Counted from the first letter of the stretch, positions 686 to 13,269 are shown. The stretch is 45,196 bases of DNA from Singulisphaera sp. GP187 (GCA_943328915.2 CALQBW020000007.1:1-45196); one strand, 5' to 3'. Program-made: numbers and translations. The notes: generated from the letters alone by a model not told the origin.

Positions 686-1456
686 TTACGGACGTAAACC
701 AGCCAACATGGCTTTGGCACCGTTCTGTAAAAAGCGTAAATCGCTGCCACACAGCATCATATTCATCCCTTTGGCATGCCAGCCTTTGAGAATGGCCGGG
801 TCACTGGCGTGGGTACCGGTGGTCACTCCATGGCGTTTGCCAGCCGCCACTACTTTATCCATTGCCGCTGTGACAATCGGGTCAATAGTGCTAGGGGCAC
901 CCAAGGCGATTGCCAAATCATATGGGCCGACTAACAACACATCGACGCCGGGCACGCTGGCGATGGCATCGAGGTTGGTGATGGCTTGCGCACGTTCGAT
1001 TTGGATGATGACGAGCGTTTCATTGTTCATATGACTGATGAGTTCGCGCGGAGGCACATCGCGGTAGTCGGTTGCGCCACGCACCGATGCCGCCCCGCGA
1101 TCGCCGCGAGGAGGGTATTTGATGTGGCGGATGGCTTCTTCGACTTGCGCGGCTGTATCAATGCGCGGAATCATCACGCCTTGGGCACCGGCATCAAGGA
1201 GACGGGCGATATCACCATAGCGCAAATCAGGGACACGGACAATTGGGGTAATCCCACACAGTCGTGTCGTACCGATTAAATCGGCTACCATGGGCAAGTC
1301 GTAGACGCCATGTTCGAGGTCAAAAAAGATACTGTCAAAGCCTGCATCCGCCAACAAATGCACATACGCCGGCGCGCGCATATCCATTGCGAGTGTGCCA
1401 GTGACCATCGCACCGGTGGCGATTTTTGCTTTGAGTGCGTTGAATGCAAGAGTCAT
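686..1456 (-). CDS. HpcH/HpaI-family aldolase
   Basis: The product is 256 residues, a normal length for class II pyruvate-dependent aldolases of the HpcH/HpaI (2,4-dihydroxyhept-2-ene-1,7-dioate aldolase-like) family. These enzymes cleave 4-hydroxy-2-oxo acids to pyruvate or oxaloacetate and an aldehyde, using a divalent metal. Visible family marks are 'FFDLEHG' (catalytic histidine region), 'PIVRVPD' (phosphate/carboxylate-binding arginine region), 'GAQGVMIPRIDT', and 'YPPRGDRG'. I chose the ATG at 1456 because it overlaps the stop of the upstream amidohydrolase as ATGA (1453-1456) and gives the usual N-terminus (MTLAFNALKAK); a longer in-frame start would extend into the upstream gene. It is the last gene of the AroM-containing operon. 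The true substrate is unknown; the operon suggests cleavage of an acid released by the amidohydrolase. Confidence 0.88.
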   Translation of the reverse strand: MTLAFNALKAKIATGAMVTGTLAMDMRAPAYVHLLADAGFDSIFFDLEHGVYDLPMVADLIGTTRLCGITPIVRVPDLRYGDIARLLDAGAQGVMIPRIDTAAQVEEAIRHIKYPPRGDRGAASVRGATDYRDVPPRELISHMNNETLVIIQIERAQAITNLDAIASVPGVDVLLVGPYDLAIALGAPSTIDPIVTAAMDKVVAAGKRHGVTTGTHASDPAILKGWHAKGMNMMLCGSDLRFLQNGAKAMLAGLRP

Positions 1457-2856
1457 AGGAAGGGCCTTTCTTGTTTGAGGGGAGTAGGAGCGACAAAACG
1501 CCCCCAACCGGGCAGACCTGTCACCTGGCCCTTGTGACTTACTTGTTTGCCACGGACAAACGTGCTGACGACAGCACCCCGCGTTTGGCGACCGTGCCAG
1601 AGCCGCGCGGTGACGCGCGATTTACTTTCCCACGTCGCGGTATCGATGCGCCCTTCGGCGGCAAGGTCTACCAGCATCAAGTCTGCGTCAGCACCGACGG
1701 CGATGACGCCTTTGCGGCCGGCCATCCCAAATATCGCCGCACTATTCGTGCTGAGCAGCGACACCATGCGCTCGAGGGTAATCCGACCGTAGGCGACGGC
1801 AGTGAGCATCAGCGGCACGAGGATTTCGATGCCGGGGGCACCTGGGGGAGCCGCCCACATGTTATTCCAACCCGGTTCTTTTTCGCTGGCCAAAAATGGC
1901 GAATGGTCGGTGCCGATGATGTCGACTTCCCCCCGGGCCACCCGCTCCCACATCGCTTCTACGAGGAATTCATCGCGGACGGGTGGGTTGGTTTTGGCAT
2001 ACGGGCCATAGGTCTCCAAATCAGCGTCCGTCAAAAACAAATAGGGTGGGCAGGTTTCGCAGGTGACTTTGATGCCAGCCGCCCGCGCTTGGGTAATCAA
2101 ATCGATGGAGTAGGGACTCGACACGTGCACCACATGCAACCAGGCATTGGCGGCGCGGGCCAGGGCGATTGATTGGGCCACACAGGCTTCTTCGACCACG
2201 GGGGGACGGGCCCGGCCATGACTGGTCGGTCCGTTGTCGCCGGCAGCTTTGAGGTGGGTTGCGAGGACGGCCAAAATATATTCGTCTTCGGCGTGAATTG
2301 CGGCCGGGCGGCCGGTTTTGGCGGTGACTTGGAGCACTCGATAAAACTCACCGGGGTCGGGGCAACACAGCCCAATGAATTCTTTTTCGCGCCCGGCTGG
2401 GACGGCGGTACGGAAGGTTTTGAACGAAATAATCCCGGCATTGGCAAGGGCAGGCAATTCGGCGATATTGTCGGCGGCAGCCCCACCGTACAAGGCAAAA
2501 TCGATATAGGCTTTGGGTTGGACGGCACTAATCCGGTCTGTCAGCGTTTGGGCATTGTGTACTGACGGGCTGGCGATGGGCATTTCGCAAATCATTGTTA
2601 TCCCCGAAACTGCAGCAGCCCGAGTTGCAGTGGCGAAGTCTTCGCGTTCGAGGCGGCCTGGATCGCGGACATGCACGTGGCTGTCGATGGCTCCCGGCAA
2701 TAAGTAGAGCCCGGTGGCATCGACCGTGGTGTGCGCAGGCGCAAAGTCTGCGCTCTGCCCCAACGCTACGATCTTCCCATCACGGACGGCGACATCGAGT
2801 TGGTGACGGCCATCGGCATTGACAACAGTGGCATTGCGGATGATGAGGTCAAGCAT
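1453..2856 (-). CDS. Cyclic amidohydrolase (dihydroorotase/allantoinase/hydantoinase-like)
   Basis: This 467-residue protein belongs to the amidohydrolase superfamily that opens cyclic amides such as dihydroorotate, allantoin and hydantoins in the cytoplasm. The N-terminal beta-sandwich strand 'IIRNATVVNADG' is followed by the first metal motif 'DSHVHVRDPG' (about residue 60). Further on are 'GITMICEMP', a lysine in 'ISFKTF' that could be the carbamylated metal bridge, histidines in 'AIHAED' and 'VHVSSP', and the late metal motif 'IGTDHSPF'. The order and length fit allantoinase or hydantoinase better than the short class II dihydroorotase. No pyrimidine biosynthesis gene is nearby, so a catabolic role is more likely. 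Its stop overlaps the aldolase start by four bases, implying translational coupling. A gap of 77 bases separates it from the upstream SDR gene. Confidence 0.88.
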   Translation of the reverse strand: MLDLIIRNATVVNADGRHQLDVAVRDGKIVALGQSADFAPAHTTVDATGLYLLPGAIDSHVHVRDPGRLEREDFATATRAAAVSGITMICEMPIASPSVHNAQTLTDRISAVQPKAYIDFALYGGAAADNIAELPALANAGIISFKTFRTAVPAGREKEFIGLCCPDPGEFYRVLQVTAKTGRPAAIHAEDEYILAVLATHLKAAGDNGPTSHGRARPPVVEEACVAQSIALARAANAWLHVVHVSSPYSIDLITQARAAGIKVTCETCPPYLFLTDADLETYGPYAKTNPPVRDEFLVEAMWERVARGEVDIIGTDHSPFLASEKEPGWNNMWAAPPGAPGIEILVPLMLTAVAYGRITLERMVSLLSTNSAAIFGMAGRKGVIAVGADADLMLVDLAAEGRIDTATWESKSRVTARLWHGRQTRGAVVSTFVRGKQVSHKGQVTGLPGWGRFVAPTPLKQERPFL

Positions 2857-2933
2857 AATGATTCTTTCACGAAGAGAAATAATTCCTGTAGCATCATCAC
2901 TAAGCGGTGGCTGTTACGGGAGTGAGGTGCGGT

Positions 2934-3725
2934 TTAAGGAAGTGCGTTTGAGGCTGCCCCGTCGATCAGGGTAGCAGTACCGCTCATGTATGAAGCAGCT
3001 TCTGACGCCAAAAAGACGATGAAATTTGCGAATTCGGCTGGTTCACCTAACCGTCCAATGGGGATTTGGCTCATTGAGGCTTGGCGTACTTGGTCGAGGC
3101 TGGTGTTGGAGCGGGTGGCTTGGGCGCGGTCGAGTTCTTCGATGCGCTCGGTGCCGATGCGCCCGGGTCCTACCACGTGCACGAGCACGTTGTGCTGGGC
3201 CACTTCTCGGGCTAATGATTTGGCCATGGCATTGACGCCAGCCCGCATCACATTTGACAAAATCAAGTTGGGGATGGGTTGGCGAATTGATGACGAGGCA
3301 ATGGTGAGCAAGCGCCCGTAGTTGGATTGCTTCATGTGGGGCAACGCAGCGCGACTGACCCACACAAAGCTCATCAAGTTTTGATTGAAGGCCGTCAACC
3401 ATTGCGTATCGTTGATGGCTTCGAATCCGCCAGGAGGAGGGCCGCCGGCATTGTGCAGGGCGATTTCGAGGCCGCCGTATTGTTCGACACAGGTGGCGAT
3501 GACTTTTTGGATGTCGGCTTCTGTGTTGACATCTGCAGCCACGCCGATGACATCTGCACCGGTTTCGGCGCGAATTTTGGCGGCGGCTTCGTCGATGCGG
3601 GCTTGGTCACGGCTAGCGATGACTAATTTGACCCCTTCTTGGGCCAAACCGAGGGCACAGGCATAGCCGAGGCCACGACTGGCTGCAAACACAACGGCAC
3701 GTTTGCCGGTTAATCCGAGTTTCAT
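2934..3725 (-). CDS. SDR-family oxidoreductase lacking the usual catalytic tyrosine
   Basis: This 263-residue short-chain dehydrogenase/reductase has the Rossmann cofactor motif near the N-terminus as 'AASRGLGYA' (about residues 14-22), an NNAG-equivalent 'LHNAGGPP', the catalytic serine region 'LLTIASSS', and a C-terminal 'SGTATLIDGA'. In the active site the canonical YxxxK is not present: the segment reads 'SNVMRAGVNAMAKSLARE', so the lysine remains while the tyrosine position looks like Asn or Met. A group of 3-oxoacyl-ACP-reductase-like SDRs shares this arrangement, so it need not be dead, but its chemistry is uncertain. The start ATG (3725) overlaps the stop of the upstream DapA-like gene as ATGA. 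It likely reduces or oxidises a hydroxy/keto intermediate of the same catabolic route. Confidence 0.85.
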   Translation of the reverse strand: MKLGLTGKRAVVFAASRGLGYACALGLAQEGVKLVIASRDQARIDEAAAKIRAETGADVIGVAADVNTEADIQKVIATCVEQYGGLEIALHNAGGPPPGGFEAINDTQWLTAFNQNLMSFVWVSRAALPHMKQSNYGRLLTIASSSIRQPIPNLILSNVMRAGVNAMAKSLAREVAQHNVLVHVVGPGRIGTERIEELDRAQATRSNTSLDQVRQASMSQIPIGRLGEPAEFANFIVFLASEAASYMSGTATLIDGAASNALP

Positions 3726-4642
3726 ACGTGAACTCCTTTGAAGTGCTGAATGAGGCCTAAACGCGTCACAATATCATGCAAATCGGCAATCACGTCAGCA
3801 GGCAACGGGTTCGACGGCGCACGCACATGGGCGTGGGCAATGGCACCGCGTTGCATGTAGATATATTTCCGGATTGCCAAATTGATGCCTGGTTGGTTTT
3901 CATAACGGATGAGGGGACAGGCCTGATAAAACGTCTGGGTGGCGCCGTTAACATCGCCGGCCGCCCATTGAGTACAAATTGACACCAAGATTTCGCTGAA
4001 ACCAAAGCCCGTCATACAGCCATCGACGCCGTGGCGTAGTTCTTCGAGGAGCATATTGGCACCCATACCCCCAAAAATCACCATGTCGGGGGCGGCGGCG
4101 CGCATGCGGGTAGTTTTGGCAGGAGTTGGTTCTTCTTCAAGCTTGAGGTAATTACAGCCTGGCACGTCGCGGGCTAGATTGGCCAAAAAATCAACACTCA
4201 TCAAGACACCGCTACTCGTGGGGTGGTCTTGCACCACCACGGGGATGGTGACGGCGTCGGCGACGCGCTGGTAGTGACTCCGCAAGGCGGCATCGTTGGG
4301 TTTGGCGAGGCGTGGTGGTGCCACCATCAAGGCATCGGCACCGAGTTCAGCGGCGCGCTTGCTCAACGCCACACAGCGGTCGGTAGCCACATGGCTGGTA
4401 CCGATACAGATTTTGACGCGGCCAGCGGCGGCAGTGATGACGTCATCGATGATGACATCACGCTCGGCATCTCCGAGTTTGTCGACTTCGCCCATCACGC
4501 CCAGCATGGTGATGCCTTGGACGCCGAGTCCGACTAGCATATCGACCATAGTGGCGAGGCTAGCTCGGTCGAGTTCACCCGTGGGGAGGAAGGGCGTGGG
4601 GGCAATGGTGTAAGTCCCGTGTAAAAACGGATGACGTGGCAT
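3722..4642 (-). CDS. Dihydrodipicolinate synthase (DapA/NanA) family aldolase or lyase
   Basis: This is a 306-residue (beta/alpha)8 protein of the class I aldolase DapA/NanA family. Visible marks are 'GTYTIAPTPF' at the start, 'GITMLGVMGE' (the GGTTGE-like substrate-carboxylate loop), 'VCIGT'-type strand 'VKICIGTSH', the Schiff-base lysine in 'NYLKLEEEPTP' (about residue 168), and 'IFGGMGANMLLE'. The usual YNxP tyrosine motif is replaced: 'PVVVQDHPTSSG' aligns Gln-Asp where Tyr-Asn would be. That argues against genuine lysine-pathway DapA. The operon points to a catabolic aldolase or dehydratase acting on a sugar acid or keto acid. The stop overlaps the SDR start (3722-3725). The gene lies 16 bases after the AroM-like gene. 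Confidence 0.85.
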   Translation of the reverse strand: MPRHPFLHGTYTIAPTPFLPTGELDRASLATMVDMLVGLGVQGITMLGVMGEVDKLGDAERDVIIDDVITAAAGRVKICIGTSHVATDRCVALSKRAAELGADALMVAPPRLAKPNDAALRSHYQRVADAVTIPVVVQDHPTSSGVLMSVDFLANLARDVPGCNYLKLEEEPTPAKTTRMRAAAPDMVIFGGMGANMLLEELRHGVDGCMTGFGFSEILVSICTQWAAGDVNGATQTFYQACPLIRYENQPGINLAIRKYIYMQRGAIAHAHVRAPSNPLPADVIADLHDIVTRLGLIQHFKGVHV

Positions 4643-4658
4643 GGCTACATCCTAATAA

Positions 4659-5312
4659 CTACATTTGATGGCGTAACATATCGGTAATGACTTTGCCCAA
4701 ATCGATTACGGGCAACGGGAGTAATTGTTCGAGCGTTTGGACTTTTTCGATGGGATGTCCCACATAATCGAGGATCAAACAATCGTTCTGCTGGTATATG
4801 AGTTGTTCGCGAATCCATGCGGCAAGTTCCACTGGAGGGAGCTGGGGATCGACGAGGACGGTGGGTTGGAAGCCACGCTGGAGCCATTTGCGATGGATTG
4901 GTGTGGCTTGGGTTTGATTGGGGCTGAGCACAGCGATCCGTTGAAATCCACGGATTTCGAGAATATTGGATACCATAGCCGTGGGGCGGTAGAGTGGTTT
5001 GTTACTGCGGAGCATATCAAATGGTCCAGCACACAACAACACGCTCATATTAACATCTTGTTTCTCAACCTCAGCGATGGCTTTTTGCAAGAGTGGTGCC
5101 AAAAATACTTCAGAGACTTCCACCAATGAGCCGTCTCGTAAACGAGTGGTGAGTAGGTATTCGGCAGTGGTGTCGTGGGGAATGTCTTGGGCTTGCACAA
5201 AATCGAGCGCGCCTGATTCGATATATTGGAAGAGCGAATTGGCTTTTTGCAACGGTTTGACCAAATCGGGGCGTGGCGATTGTCCAATGATAATGGCACC
5301 GATTCGTGGCAT
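4659..5312 (-). CDS. AroM family protein
   Basis: This 217-residue protein begins with the family signature 'IGAIIIGQSPRPDL' (residues 4-17). It continues with 'ESGALDF', 'LLCAGPF' (a cysteine in an Asp/Glu-racemase-like position) and 'AVLSPNQTQ', and ends in 'DCLILDYVGH' plus 'VIDLGKVITDML'. AroM is a family of unknown biochemical function named from an E. coli gene near aroL. Its fold resembles Asp/Glu/hydantoin racemases, and it is often found beside amidohydrolases and amino-acid or hydantoin catabolism genes; this association is family knowledge, not shown here. A good SD (AAGGAG) lies just before the ATG at 5312. It is the first gene of the five-gene operon. A role as a racemase-like enzyme feeding the cyclic amidohydrolase is inference. 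Confidence 0.85.
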   Translation of the reverse strand: MPRIGAIIIGQSPRPDLVKPLQKANSLFQYIESGALDFVQAQDIPHDTTAEYLLTTRLRDGSLVEVSEVFLAPLLQKAIAEVEKQDVNMSVLLCAGPFDMLRSNKPLYRPTAMVSNILEIRGFQRIAVLSPNQTQATPIHRKWLQRGFQPTVLVDPQLPPVELAAWIREQLIYQQNDCLILDYVGHPIEKVQTLEQLLPLPVIDLGKVITDMLRHQM

Positions 5313-5384: not shown

Positions 5385-7319
5385 TTAACCTTCGAGGGTC
5401 GAGATATCACCCAAATCTTGGCCAAGGGCTTGGGCTTTGAGGACACGGCGCATGATTTTGCCCGAGCGGGTTTTGGGCAATTGCGGGACAAAGGTGACTG
5501 CTTCGGGTTTGGTGATGGGGCCGAGTTCTTTGGCGACGTGGGTGCGTAATTCTTCGCCCAATTTATCGCTACTTTCATAGCCGTTGCGCAAAATCACGAA
5601 GCAGTGAATCCCGGTGCCTTTGATTTCGTGGGGCAAGCCGATGGCAGCGGCTTCGGCTACGGCAGGATGTGACACCAGCGCGCTTTCGATTTCAGCGGTA
5701 CCAAGGCGATAGCCCGACACCTTGATGACGTCGTCGATGCGGCCGATAATCCAGAAGTAGCCATCTTTGTCACGGCGGGCCGAGTCGCCGGCGCTATACA
5801 AGCCGACGGGCTCACTGTGCCAGTATTGGTTGGCATAGCGGTCGGGGTCGTGCAAAATGGTACGCATAATCGCTGGCCACGGGCGCTTGGCGACGAGCAG
5901 TCCATCTTCGTTGTCTGGCTTACTGTTACCGTGTTCGTCGACCACGTCCATCTCAATACCGAGGAACGGCTTAGTGCCAGAGCCGGGTTTGAGGGGGGTG
6001 GTGGGGTTGGGGGTAATCATGATTCCGCCGGTCTCGGTTTGCCACCACGTATCCATGATGGGACAGCGATTGCCACCGATGACGTCGTAGTACCAGCGCC
6101 AGGCTTCGGGGTTGATGGGTTCACCTACTGACCCGAGCAGGCGTAGGCTCGACAGGTCGTGGCGTTTGGGCCAAGCATCCCCAAAGCGCATCAAGCCGCG
6201 GATAGCGGTGGGTGCGGTATACAAAATACTGATTTTGTAGCGCTCAATCATCTGCCACCAGCGATTGGGGTAGGGGTAATTGGGGGCACCTTCGTAGATA
6301 AACGAGGTGGCGCCTTCTATTAACGGGGCATAGACGATATACGAGTGACCGGTAATCCAACCTGGGTCAGCGGCGCACCAGTAGATATCGTCATCCTTTA
6401 CATCGAGGGTAAAGTGGAACGACGATGAAATGCCTACCGAATAGCCACCGTGGGTATGCAACACCCCTTTGGGCTTACCGGTTGACCCCGAAGTGTAAAG
6501 AATAAACAACGGGTCTTCGGCATCGAGGGGCTCGGTGGCGCAGACTTCGCTGGCGATTGGTAACGTCATCAAATCATGCCACCAAAAGTCACGACCTACT
6601 TGCATATCGACGGCGTGTCCAGTTCGTTTGAGGACAATTGCCGTTTGAATCGTTGGTGATGATGCCATGGCATCGTCTGCGATTTTTTTGAGCTCGACGA
6701 TTTTGTTGCGCATATAGCCGCCGTCGGCGGTAATCAATACTTTGGAATGGGCATCGGCAATCCGGTCACGCAACGCTTCGTGAGAGAAACCACCATAAAT
6801 CACCGAATGGGCGGCGCCGATTTTGGCACAGGCCAGCATCGCAAAGGGTAATTCGGGCACACGGGGCAGATAAATCGATACGATGTCGCCTTTTTTGACC
6901 CCCATGGCTTTGAGCACGTTGGCGAGGCGACAGACTTCGCGATTGACGTCGGCATACGAAAAATTGCGCACCGTGCCGTCCTCGCCTTCCCAGATATAGG
7001 CGAGTTTATTACGGCGCCATGTATGCATATGGCGATCAATTGCGTTGTGGACGATGTTGGTTTGCCCGCCAGTGAACCACTTGAAAAATGGTTTGTTGCT
7101 GTCGTCAAAGACAGAAATGTAGGGCTTGTACCATTCGAGGCGTTGTGCCATTTCACCCCAAAATTCCTCCGAATGATCCAGGCTCCAACGGTGTAAATCA
7201 TCCCACGTGCTAAAGCCTTTTTTGAGCATATAGGCGGTTATGTTGGCTTGAGCAACGACGTCAGCCGTCGGATAATAAATATCTGGACTGGCATTGCTGG
7301 GGCGCGCATTTTCGGTCAT
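5385..7319 (-). CDS. acsA: Acetyl-CoA synthetase (AMP-forming)
   Basis: This 644-residue enzyme activates acetate with ATP and CoA to acetyl-CoA via acetyl-AMP in the cytosol. The ANL-superfamily marks are all visible: P-loop 'YTSGSTGKPKG' (about residue 265), the ACS-typical 'WWQTETGG' (A5 region), 'YSAGDSARRDKDGYFWIIGR' (A7-A8 hinge) and the C-terminal 'KTRSGKIMRR', whose last-domain lysine is the conserved acetylation site. Length fits bacterial Acs exactly. I set the start at 7319, where a GGGAGG SD sits 5 bases upstream; a longer in-frame ATG at 7340 would place that SD inside the gene. A near-consensus extended -10 is found 75 bases upstream. It may be partly cotranscribed with the AroM operon, 72 bases downstream. 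Confidence 0.97.
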   Translation of the reverse strand: MTENARPSNASPDIYYPTADVVAQANITAYMLKKGFSTWDDLHRWSLDHSEEFWGEMAQRLEWYKPYISVFDDSNKPFFKWFTGGQTNIVHNAIDRHMHTWRRNKLAYIWEGEDGTVRNFSYADVNREVCRLANVLKAMGVKKGDIVSIYLPRVPELPFAMLACAKIGAAHSVIYGGFSHEALRDRIADAHSKVLITADGGYMRNKIVELKKIADDAMASSPTIQTAIVLKRTGHAVDMQVGRDFWWHDLMTLPIASEVCATEPLDAEDPLFILYTSGSTGKPKGVLHTHGGYSVGISSSFHFTLDVKDDDIYWCAADPGWITGHSYIVYAPLIEGATSFIYEGAPNYPYPNRWWQMIERYKISILYTAPTAIRGLMRFGDAWPKRHDLSSLRLLGSVGEPINPEAWRWYYDVIGGNRCPIMDTWWQTETGGIMITPNPTTPLKPGSGTKPFLGIEMDVVDEHGNSKPDNEDGLLVAKRPWPAIMRTILHDPDRYANQYWHSEPVGLYSAGDSARRDKDGYFWIIGRIDDVIKVSGYRLGTAEIESALVSHPAVAEAAAIGLPHEIKGTGIHCFVILRNGYESSDKLGEELRTHVAKELGPITKPEAVTFVPQLPKTRSGKIMRRVLKAQALGQDLGDISTLEG

Positions 7320-7393
7320 ACAAACCTCCCTATCAAACATTCATCGTCTTGGTGGTATGTAGATATCCACGGAATGGGTAAATGTGTGGCTGT

Positions 7394-10681: not shown

Positions 10682-11608
10682 ATGGTGCAGTACGATGTTG
10701 TTGTACTCGGTGAAATAAACGCCGATTTGATTTTGCAAGGTGACGTCGATCCAGAATGGCAACAACACGAAAAAATCGTCGATGACATGGCACTGGTGCT
10801 GGGTGGTTCGGCAGCAATATTTGCTTGTGGAGTGGCGCGCCTCGGCCTCAAGGTTGCTTATGTCGGGGTTTGTGGCGATGATACTATCGGCCGGTTTTGT
10901 CTGGCTGAACTCAACGCTGCGGGCATCGATACCCGCCATGTGATTATTGATCCTGCCATCAAAAGTGGCTTGACGCTGGTTTTGCAAAAACCGCATGACC
11001 GTGGCATGTTGACGTACGAAGGTGGTATCCCGCTGCTGCGTGCTGACATGGTGCCTGCAGAATTAATTGCCAATAGCCGCCACATGCATATTGGCAGCTA
11101 CTATCTACAACATGCATTGCGCCCAGGCTTGCCCGATCTTTTTGCACAAATACAAACCCATGGTGGCACGACTTCGGTCGATACCAACTGGGATCCAAGT
11201 GGCGAATGGGCCGGCTTACATGATTTATTTCTACATACCAATGTGTTTTTGCCCAACGACGCTGAAGCCTGTGCGATTAGCCGGTGTGATAGTGTGGCAC
11301 AGGCGCTGGCGACGTTGGCCTCTCAAGTCCAAACCATAGCCATCAAATGTGGCACCGATGGTGCCTACGCCCAGCGCGGGGCGGAAGTGTCCCACGCTGA
11401 TTCGTTAGCGACGGTGTTTGTCGATGCGGTTGGTGCGGGGGATTCGTTTAATGCGGGGATGGTGTTTGGGTTGTTGGCGGGCTGGTCGCTGGCCAAAGCA
11501 ACCCGCCTCGGGGTAATCTGTGGCTCATTGTCGACGCGGGCCTCGGGTGGCACCGCCGCCCAGCCGACAATCACCGAGGCAATGGTATTTTTGGGCAATA
11601 TGGCCTAG
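10682..11608 (+). CDS. PfkB-family carbohydrate kinase
   Basis: This 308-residue ribokinase-fold kinase transfers phosphate from ATP to a sugar or sugar-like alcohol. The N-terminus 'DVVVLGEINADLI' matches PfkB motif starts. The glycine-rich 'LGGSAAIFACGVARLG' is PROSITE-like signature 1. 'DAVGAGDSFNAGM' near residue 250 is signature 2, with the catalytic Asp in GAGDSF. The substrate cannot be told from sequence; sugars of the ribose or fructose-6-phosphate class are typical, and 2-keto-3-deoxygluconate is possible. AGGGAG lies 7 bases before the ATG. The gene ends 16 bases before the XdhC-like genes, which are unrelated in function, so the operon may be only loosely functional. Confidence 0.9.
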   Translation: MVQYDVVVLGEINADLILQGDVDPEWQQHEKIVDDMALVLGGSAAIFACGVARLGLKVAYVGVCGDDTIGRFCLAELNAAGIDTRHVIIDPAIKSGLTLVLQKPHDRGMLTYEGGIPLLRADMVPAELIANSRHMHIGSYYLQHALRPGLPDLFAQIQTHGGTTSVDTNWDPSGEWAGLHDLFLHTNVFLPNDAEACAISRCDSVAQALATLASQVQTIAIKCGTDGAYAQRGAEVSHADSLATVFVDAVGAGDSFNAGMVFGLLAGWSLAKATRLGVICGSLSTRASGGTAAQPTITEAMVFLGNMA

Positions 11609-11624
11609 CAAAAGTGAGTACCCA

Positions 11625-11945
11625 ATGCGTGACGTAGTAGCGGCAATTGATACATGGCAACAACGGGGCGAGCGTGTGGCGATCGCCACCGTGGTGCGCA
11701 CGTTGGGGTCGTCGCCACGCGGAGTCGGCGCAAAAATGGTCGTATCTGATGCCGGCAATATGGCGGGGTCGGTAAGTGGTGGTTGTATTGAAGGTGCTGT
11801 TTTTACCGCATGCCAACAAGCAATACGCACGGGCCAAGCCACGTTGATGCACTTTGGCGTCCCCGATGAGGCAGCGTGGGAAGTAGGTTTGGCCTGTGGG
11901 GGCACTATTGATGTCTTTATTGAGCCGTTAGGCACCAGCGAGTAA
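11625..11945 (+). CDS. XdhC/CoxI family protein, N-terminal-domain-only
   Basis: This 106-residue protein equals the XdhC_CoxI N-terminal domain: 'ERVAIATVVRTLGSSPRGVGAKM', 'MAGSVSGGCIEGAVF' with the conserved GCIE cysteine, and 'GLACGGTIDVFIEPL' with the CGG cysteine. XdhC proteins bind molybdenum cofactor, have it sulfurated, and deliver it to xanthine dehydrogenase-type hydroxylases. The partner Rossmann domain is a separate gene 11 bases downstream. I chose ATG 11625; upstream in-frame codons lie in the PfkB gene. Only a weak GTGAG SD is seen. Confidence 0.88.
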   Translation: MRDVVAAIDTWQQRGERVAIATVVRTLGSSPRGVGAKMVVSDAGNMAGSVSGGCIEGAVFTACQQAIRTGQATLMHFGVPDEAAWEVGLACGGTIDVFIEPLGTSE

Positions 11946-11956
11946 GGTGTCATTGT

Positions 11957-12676
11957 ATGCAAAAAACTATCTACACGCGCCTACGTGACTTGATTACCCG
12001 CGAACAGCCGGTTGCCTTGGCAACCGTCGTCGCTGGCGATGATATTGGGGTACAGGTCCTAATCCAGCCCGACCAAGCGGTCATCAGCATGCTCAATGAC
12101 ACTGCGTTGGTCGCGCAAGTCCGCCAAGACGCCTTGGCGATGTTGCTCCGTGGCGATCAAGGTGTGCGTACCTATGGTGAACGTCAGATTTTCATCGAAA
12201 CCTACCCACCTCCTGCCACAATTATCATGGTGGGGGCGGTGCATATTGCGGTGGCCTTGACGGCCTTTGCCAAACCGTTGGGCTTTCGTACGATTGTGGT
12301 CGATGCCCGCGGTGCCTTTGCCACCAACGAACGCTTTGGGCATGCCGACGAACTCGTGCATGCTTGGCCTGATGAAGCCTTGCAAGGGCGATTACACAGC
12401 AACACAGCCGTGGTGGTACTTACCCACGACCCCAAATTAGATGACCCCGCTTTGCTAGTGGCATTACCAAGTGCAGCCCGCTTTGTGGGGGCGCTGGGGA
12501 GTAGCAAAACCCAGGCAGCGCGGGTGATTCGCCTGCGGGAAGCTGGGCTTACTGATGACCAAATTGCCCGCTTGCATGCGCCGATCGGTTTGCCAATTGG
12601 CGGGCGTACCCCCGAAGAAATCGGCTTGAGCATCATGGCGCAAATCGTCGCCGAGCGTAACGGAAAGTCATTATGA
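11957..12676 (+). CDS. XdhC family protein, Rossmann (C-terminal) domain
   Basis: This 239-residue protein has an N-terminal stretch resembling the rest of the CoxI-type domain ('EQPVALATVV') and then the XdhC Rossmann domain: 'PPATIIMVGAVHIAVAL' (dinucleotide-binding), 'FRTIVVDARGAFAT', 'VVVLTHDPKLDDPAL', 'FVGALGSSKTQAAR' and 'GLPIGGRTPEEIGLSI'. With the preceding gene it makes a complete XdhC-like maturation factor for molybdenum hydroxylases. AAGGTG precedes the ATG. The stop overlaps the start of the MocA-like gene as ATGA (12673-12676). Confidence 0.9.
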   Translation: MQKTIYTRLRDLITREQPVALATVVAGDDIGVQVLIQPDQAVISMLNDTALVAQVRQDALAMLLRGDQGVRTYGERQIFIETYPPPATIIMVGAVHIAVALTAFAKPLGFRTIVVDARGAFATNERFGHADELVHAWPDEALQGRLHSNTAVVVLTHDPKLDDPALLVALPSAARFVGALGSSKTQAARVIRLREAGLTDDQIARLHAPIGLPIGGRTPEEIGLSIMAQIVAERNGKSL

Positions 12677-13269
12677 CCGTCGCTGCCATCATCCTCGCAG
12701 CCGGCTTATCGCGCCGCCTTGGCCGCCCCAAGCAGTTCCTTGATTGGGGCGGGGTGCCGTTGGTGCGCCATAGTCTGCTGACGGCAAAGCATTCTATGCT
12801 CTCCGCCGTCGCGGTGGTGGTAGGGCATCACGCCGATGCAGTGTGCGCCATTGTGGCAGACCTCGCAGTGCCTTGCATCGAAAACACCACGTACGAAAGT
12901 GGTCAAGCCAGCTCCGTCGCCTGTGGTGCGCAATGGTTTTTGACGCAGTCATATGATGCCCTGATGGTGCTGCTTTGTGACCAACCACTATTGACTGCTG
13001 CGCATATCAATGCGTGTATTGCTGCGTGGCAAGCCACGCGGCCGGCGGTGCTAATCCCACAAGTTGCGGGGCAAGCAACTAACCCGGTCATCTGGTCTGC
13101 TGCCACGGTGCCATTGCTGACGACATTGACCGGCGACCAAGGCGGGCGTGTGTTGTTTGGCGCAAGTAAAGTTTCCCCACAGTTTTGGCCAATTGATTCC
13201 CCTGAATTGTTACGTGATATAGATACCGATGCGGATTATGCCGCGCTGCGTGCAGATGCTGCAATCTAA
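12673..13269 (+). CDS. MocA-like molybdenum cofactor nucleotidyltransferase
   Basis: This 198-residue NTP-transferase has the GT-A nucleotide-binding start 'IILAAGLSRRLGRPKQ' (residues 6-21) and a 'GQASSVACGAQ' segment. The metal-binding region follows as 'LMVLLCDQPLLTA', and then 'GDQGGRVLF'. This matches MocA/MobA-like enzymes that add CMP (or GMP) to molybdopterin for xanthine dehydrogenase-family proteins. It overlaps the XdhC Rossmann gene by four bases, which fits shared cofactor maturation. No molybdenum hydroxylase structural genes are in the window. Confidence 0.9.
   Translation: MTVAAIILAAGLSRRLGRPKQFLDWGGVPLVRHSLLTAKHSMLSAVAVVVGHHADAVCAIVADLAVPCIENTTYESGQASSVACGAQWFLTQSYDALMVLLCDQPLLTAAHINACIAAWQATRPAVLIPQVAGQATNPVIWSAATVPLLTTLTGDQGGRVLFGASKVSPQFWPIDSPELLRDIDTDADYAALRADAAI

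Follow-up and report, generated by a model that had tools for sequence, protein, structure and literature searches.

Organization of the AroM operon

The window analyzed here is the entire 45,196-base contig C7, which belongs to a draft genome of 2.9 Mb. Its minus strand carries five operon ORFs, all real and intact, that are transcribed in the order AroM, a DapA-like protein, an SDR, an amidohydrolase (AmdH), and HpcH (Table 1). All five exceed the cut-offs of their Pfam families (PF07302 AroM, PF00701 DHDPS, adh_short, Amidohydro_1, and HpcH_HpaI, respectively). When genomes were scanned with an AroM alignment, the nearest named relatives of the window were freshwater Roseiflexaceae MAGs (e.g., UBA965), which places the window in a Chloroflexota genus of lake metagenomes. 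One further locus (L069, CAMCVW010000015) is titled Thermoflexus hugenholtzii JAD2, yet is closely related to the window genus, and its label is probably wrong.

Table 1. Genes of the AroM operon and its upstream neighbor, in positions of the window
Feature	Position	Strand	Evidence
AroM-family protein, 217 aa	4659..5312	-	PF07302 114.8 bits; AF2 model; Cys94/Tyr183
DapA-like protein (DHDPS/NAL family), variant lyase or dehydratase	3722..4642	-	PF00701; PDB 7c0c; Q138/K167/E169
SDR, variant active site	2934..3725	-	adh_short; best PDB 2z1n; SSxxxxPIPxLxxSNxxR
AmdH, cyclic amidohydrolase (hydantoinase/allantoinase class)	1453..2856	-	PDB 1gkr; metal ligands; tree
HpcH/HpaI class II aldolase	686..1456	-	PF03328 119 bits; best PDB 3qz6
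Acetate-CoA ligase (AcsA), upstream neighbor	5385..7340	-	TIGR02188 894 bits vs. cut-off 725; synteny

Two ATGA stop/start overlaps had been described in a sequence-only reading of this DNA, and they are indeed present, at the DapA/SDR and AmdH/HpcH junctions. Because of the latter overlap, the ATG at 1456 is more likely to be the start of HpcH than the TTG at 1507. The order of all five genes is the same in the 10 congeners searched, wherever their contigs reach. In two congeners (L049:4901-7747 and L046:2533-3828), one or two opposite-strand genes of a secreted repeat type (RCC1-like by eye) separate the SDR gene from AmdH; in L049, the 3' end of the SDR gene is also copied at 6271-6354 with 89% identity, which looks like a segment duplication. 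Measured against two congeners, dN/dS lies between 0.016 and 0.15 for each operon gene, which indicates purifying selection on all five; this extends to the SDR, whose active site is unusual. AroM changes fastest, and its identity with the more remote congeners is 65-71%, vs. about 72-87% for the other four.

The AcsA (acetyl-CoA synthetase) gene lies on the same strand, 72 bp upstream of the operon, and keeps this position in congeners. It may be co-transcribed with the operon and is outside the wider conserved core described below. Across the window, promoter-like sites were no commoner than in shuffled sequence, Rfam gave zero matches, and terminator-like sites numbered 9 vs. 5.4 expected, a surplus from which transcript ends cannot be placed. 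Close to the operon, at 10682-13269, are genes for a pfkB-like kinase, an XdhC-like pair, and a MocA-like nucleotidyltransferase (families assigned by eye), which are kept in congeners.

Predicted fold and active site of AroM

To our knowledge, AroM has been a named family for decades with no reaction attached to it. The window protein scores 114.8 bits with PF07302, against a cut-off of 23.8, and is a member of this family. A profile search of PDB sequences gave nothing significant for AroM, and a fold search was therefore needed. The AlphaFold2 (AF2) model, which has a pLDDT of 95, matched maleate isomerase (VIA Z 16.8), the G74C/C188S mutant of arylmalonate decarboxylase (AMDase; Z 16.5), and two racemases, those of hydantoin (16.0) and allantoin (14.9); Z ran from 16.8 to 12.9 over 50 entries, nearly all of which belong to the Asp/Glu/hydantoin racemase superfamily. 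According to this model, AroM has the fold of that superfamily (Z about 15-17 for AMDase and the racemases). The first catalytic cysteine is shared as well, at about 14-16% sequence identity.

This residue, Cys94, is invariant among 50 aligned AroM proteins. On the other hand, the position of the second catalytic cysteine (motif D-C-x-G) is Tyr183 in the window AroM. In the same alignment, this position is a tyrosine (once a phenylalanine) in 24 proteins and a cysteine in 26, and all 24 Tyr/Phe proteins come from Chloroflexota, Bacteroidota, and Gemmatimonadota. The replacement maps to a single change on the AroM tree (branch support 99), with the window AroM inside the Tyr group. With Cys94 kept and Tyr183 in second place, the window AroM lacks the cysteine pair that defines the racemases of the superfamily, and thus is possibly not a racemase of the two-base type, although it may act on the same carbon as they do. 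Natural AMDase keeps only the second cysteine, which is the reverse of the window AroM.

The cyclic amidohydrolase

When aligned to E. coli allantoinase, AmdH has all of the metal ligands (H60, H62, K146, H188, H244, and D317), and by these binuclear metal ligands its sequence assigns it to the cyclic amidohydrolase/hydantoinase class. Its closest solved structure by sequence is an L-selective hydantoinase (1gkr, 304 bits), followed by allantoinase (229 bits). AmdH is marginally over the cut-off of the NCBIfam allantoinase model (362 vs. 357.85) and far below both cut-offs for ErtD (327 vs. 650 and 281 vs. 600), so that it is not an ErtD by these models.

The allantoinase score raises the question of allantoin use, in which AroM would be an allantoin racemase and AmdH an allantoinase, and either genomic M20 amidohydrolases or the DapA relative would take allantoate to glyoxylate, for use by the SDR and HpcH. 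The fold match of AroM to allantoin racemase agrees with this scheme, as do allantoate-amidohydrolase-type genes in 11 of 11 genus genomes, but AmdH is nearer to the L-hydantoinase than to allantoinase among PDB sequences, the equivalent of E. coli AllB Asn94 is an alanine, and DapA and SDR homologues elsewhere accompany ErtD-like or dihydropyrimidinase-like enzymes. Moreover, family searches found no uricase in 11 genomes of the genus and no urease in the genus, where the sole urease matches were the AmdH N-terminus itself. We consider allantoin use improbable.

In a tree of these enzymes, AmdH clusters with enzymes that Chloroflexota and Acidobacteriota encode in operons of this type. ErtD is joined by the Bacteroidota enzymes and most of those from Gemmatimonadota, and the dihydropyrimidinase-type enzymes by those from Comamonas and from one Gemmatimonadota MAG. 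The DapA subfamily is thus paired with several distinct hydantoinase lineages, which suggests that the link is one of activity, not of one inherited gene block. A locus titled Acidimicrobiia (L107, VFZG01000055) has AmdH and AroM proteins close to those of a Baikal Acidobacterium MAG (branches about 0.1), and is possibly mis-binned.

The DapA relative, the SDR, and HpcH

Two of the proteins had been read as lacking textbook active-site residues, and this holds: the SDR has S157 and R161 for the usual tyrosine and lysine, and the DapA relative has Q138 for tyrosine. Judged from their alignments, these changes are conserved subfamily signatures and not decay or lost function. In the DapA relative, the Schiff-base lysine (K167) is present, with E169 at Lys+2. 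The best PDB match is L-2-keto-3-deoxyarabonate dehydratase (7c0c), in which Gln143 and Glu173 replace the aldolase tyrosine for proton transfer (PMC9795676). Equivalents of Gln143, Lys171, and Glu173 are all found in the window protein, so that the two share a glutamine for tyrosine, the Schiff-base lysine, and a glutamate at Lys+2 (PMC9795676). In contrast, identity is about 35%, the Glu199/Glu200 segment is missing, and the LGxMGE and QPxxxLAxRK motifs differ; lacking the Glu200 equivalent, the window protein is not a member of that dehydratase group. In hydantoin-type loci, the DapA homologues show Gln or His then Asp, retain the lysine and glutamate, and have LGxMGE-type and QPxxxLAxRK-type motifs, both of which are absent from the true dehydratase.

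The likeness to this enzyme would also suit a different division of labor, in which the DapA relative, SDR, and HpcH degrade a sugar-acid-like compound, AmdH has a lactam or an imide rather than a ureide as its substrate, and AroM, in the manner of maleate isomerase or AMDase, is an isomerase or a decarboxylase. Besides the shared Gln/Lys/Glu set (PMC9795676), such a scheme draws on the top AroM fold matches, to maleate isomerase and to AMDase, some of them mutants with a cysteine at the first position. It is unlikely, given that the Glu200-type base of the dehydratase and its flanking motifs are not kept, and that the wider neighborhoods hold amino-acid or peptide transport and hydantoin genes, and no sugar genes.

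The SDR keeps S144, and its YxxxK site has S157 in place of the Tyr and R161 in place of the Lys, which sets it outside the classical SDR definition. Its motif, SSxxxxPIPxLxxSNxxR, is kept in 15 of 15 aligned sequences, and the archaeal structure 2z1n, the best PDB match, carries the same SNxxR. Where the DapA and SDR genes both occur, they sit together. An apparent DapA-AmdH fusion in CSP1-4 (L081, an ORF of 768 aa) is a frameshift artefact, with the DapA C-terminus out of frame.

HpcH exceeds the PF03328 cut-off (119 bits) and falls below the cut-off of every NCBIfam equivalog, which names the HpcH/HpaI family and no substrate. The operon had been proposed to include two carbon-carbon cleavage steps. 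One of these is consistent with HpcH, which resembles an ordinary aldolase; the second is weakened by the dehydratase Gln/Glu pair of the DapA relative (PMC9795676).

Conservation of AroM neighborhoods

The genome scan gave 69 AroM loci, of which 58 outside the genus could be scored for neighbors. Neighborhoods were drawn by tblastn, as simple ORF picking yields shadow ORFs in high-GC loci. A hydantoinase-class amidohydrolase lies within 6 kb of AroM in 36 of these 58 loci, always on the same strand. A DapA relative is near AroM in 20 of the 58, from at least four phyla and never without a hydantoinase; M20 carbamoylase-type genes occur in 8, DUF917 in 12, and any hydantoin-type partner in 47. 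Since a genome has only 0-4 AmdH-like amidohydrolases (E up to 1e-30, in 60 relatives), the association of AroM with hydantoinase is far beyond chance; a binomial estimate at an assumed 2% background is about 1e-46, which is a rough value, near relatives not being independent.

The set of AroM, AmdH, and DapA occurs in Chloroflexota, Bacteroidota (and Rhodothermales), Gemmatimonadota, and Acidobacteriota, and one Acidobacteria MAG locus (L108) has AmdH, AroM, DapA, and SDR. In Pseudomonadota, plasmids of Rhizobium, Agrobacterium, and Martelella carry AroM, an amidohydrolase, DapA, and SDR together with an amino-acid ABC transporter; their AroM proteins are very divergent (34-43 bits with PF07302), and the amidohydrolase of the Rhizobium and Martelella loci is ErtD-like. 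HpcH was found near AroM in none of the 58 loci outside the genus, and in this operon position was seen in the window genus only. The absence of a pathway with exactly this composition, as had been claimed, is true of the five genes together, a set found only in this genus, but the core of AroM, hydantoinase, and DapA, sometimes with SDR, is widely conserved. The search for neighborhoods of the five families thus recovered this core beyond close relatives, and lost HpcH outside the genus.

The association does not extend to every AroM protein. Of 400 genomes sampled evenly across the phylum, 22 carry AroM, and most copies outside the genus are near DUF917-type genes or near neither partner. 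The idea that AroM always sits with AmdH was rejected, with a cyclic amidohydrolase absent from 18 of 20 regions of this sample; the association is thus a property of some AroM clades and not of the whole family. Two-Cys AroM genes recur with DUF917 and hydantoinase/oxoprolinase genes (L129:8642-9724, L121, L105, and L172:904-8745), which forms a second hydantoin-like context. The current Pfam name of DUF917 follows S-methyl thiohydantoin desulfurase.

AroM beside hydantoin genes is already in print: in the part of PMC11055893 available to us, an AroM with a hydantoin-racemase-like fold, adjoining hydantoin genes, is proposed for other clusters, so that this part of the finding is not new. Those clusters resemble the window in the racemase-like AroM and its link to hydantoin genes, and differ, as far as that part of the article goes, in using DUF917 and a cyclodipeptide oxidase (CDO) instead of the AroM, amidohydrolase, DapA, and SDR set (PMC11055893). 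A literature search for "AroM family protein" with amidohydrolase returned no papers.

Substrate clues and proposed pathway

Several neighborhoods bear on the substrate. In Bacillota AroM loci, ErtD (hydantoin-5-propionate amidohydrolase) reaches 801 bits against a cut-off of 650 and ErtE 570 against 520; ErtE is over its cut-off in Sporosarcina and Bacillus, and ErtD in Sporosarcina. A Microvirga plasmid cluster combines thiohydantoin desulfurase, ErtD, and ErtE (all over their cut-offs) with a PF01177 racemase, a GlcD-type FAD-linked oxidase, DapA, and SDR. PF01177 racemases accompany an amidohydrolase and DapA in Martelella, Maritalea, and Microvirga, and many clusters are accompanied by amino-acid or peptide transporters. 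The Ert-type neighbors and these transporters point to an amino-acid-like hydantoin as substrate.

The same loci recall ergothioneine or histidine catabolism, with AroM racemizing hydantoin-5-propionate and AmdH as its amidohydrolase, as AroM lies within the Bacillota ErtD/ErtE loci and the Microvirga DapA and SDR genes lie beside the desulfurase, ErtD, and ErtE. The window genus makes this very improbable: AmdH is far under the ErtD cut-offs, and neither thiohydantoin desulfurase nor urocanase was found by family searches of 11 genus genomes (8 at least 90% complete). The genus genomes thus appear to fall short of the ergothioneine-utilization set of a desulfurase and a urocanase-type hydratase; the open literature searched yielded nothing useful on thiohydantoin desulfurase or ergothioneine degradation. 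As none of uricase, urease, urocanase, and thiohydantoin desulfurase was found in the genus, urate-derived allantoin, histidine, and ergothioneine are unlikely sources.

We favor, as the probable reading, an operon for the catabolism of a cyclic ureide of the hydantoin type, probably a 5-substituted hydantoin that resembles an amino acid. Cys94 of AroM would act as a base at ring C5, in an epimerization or a related one-base step, and AmdH, as a binuclear metal hydantoinase, would open the ring by hydrolysis and so yield an N-carbamoyl (ureido) acid. As far as the class of chemistry goes, the action of AroM at a ring carbon and ring opening by AmdH are supported; the opening of a cyclic ureide ring, as suggested by the sequence-only reading, is well supported for the compound class by the closeness of AmdH to L-hydantoinase and by the hydantoinases beside AroM in 36 of 58 loci. 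We infer both a hydantoin substrate and the sequence of the steps. Judging from their families, the SDR and the Lys-Schiff-base DapA relative would next work on the side chain in 2-oxo acid form, and HpcH, in this genus only, would cleave the product. Pyruvate as the outcome is a guess, as would be any scheme at the level of substrates. Any N-carbamoyl groups that are formed could be taken off by M20 carbamoylases from other loci; a gene of this type over the cut-off is present in every genus genome, and the window genome has two outside the operon. In that genome, L145:8834-11314 holds an M20 carbamoylase-type gene and a gene for a PLP-dependent enzyme like diaminopropionate ammonia-lyase (by eye), a possible partner for an N-carbamoyl amino acid.

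Against the hydantoin model are Tyr183 of AroM, the absence of a carbamoylase gene from the operon and of a linked transporter from the window, the marginal allantoinase score of AmdH, and the phylum sample, where most other AroM genes lie away from AmdH. We also put forward, tentatively, a new route for a natural cyclic ureide. A one-Cys AroM (Cys94, Tyr183) with an activity other than two-base racemization would work with the hydantoinase, and the variant SDR (Ser/Arg) and DapA relative (Gln/Lys/Glu) would replace or follow a carbamoylase, e.g., by release of urea or water from a 2-oxo acid, leading to pyruvate.

Relation to known systems and significance

Among described systems, hyu clusters (hydantoin racemase, hydantoinase, and N-carbamoylase) likewise place a racemase-fold protein beside a hydantoinase, and some AroM loci have the carbamoylase too. 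The window operon differs in having AroM (PF07302) in place of PF01177, no carbamoylase, and the added DapA, SDR, and HpcH genes. With the ergothioneine-utilization genes (thiohydantoin desulfurase, ErtD, and ErtE), the likeness lies in ring opening of the hydantoinase class, in the AroM of the Bacillota loci, and in the DapA and SDR of Microvirga, whereas the window AmdH is not ErtD by cut-off and neither desulfurase nor urocanase was found in its genus.

The conserved neighborhoods narrow the chemistry of AroM to hydantoin-like rings and name partner enzymes for assays, and the AroM family divides between proteins with both cysteines and proteins with the Tyr substitution. The presence of DapA and SDR variants with hydantoinases across phyla suggests an unassigned step in how freshwater, soil, and plant-associated bacteria break down cyclic ureides, which database names (allantoinase, dihydrodipicolinate synthase, and SDR) would mask. 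For AroM itself, the gene partnership seen in many bacteria points to a testable racemase-like role, so that its unassigned reaction is now directly open to assay.
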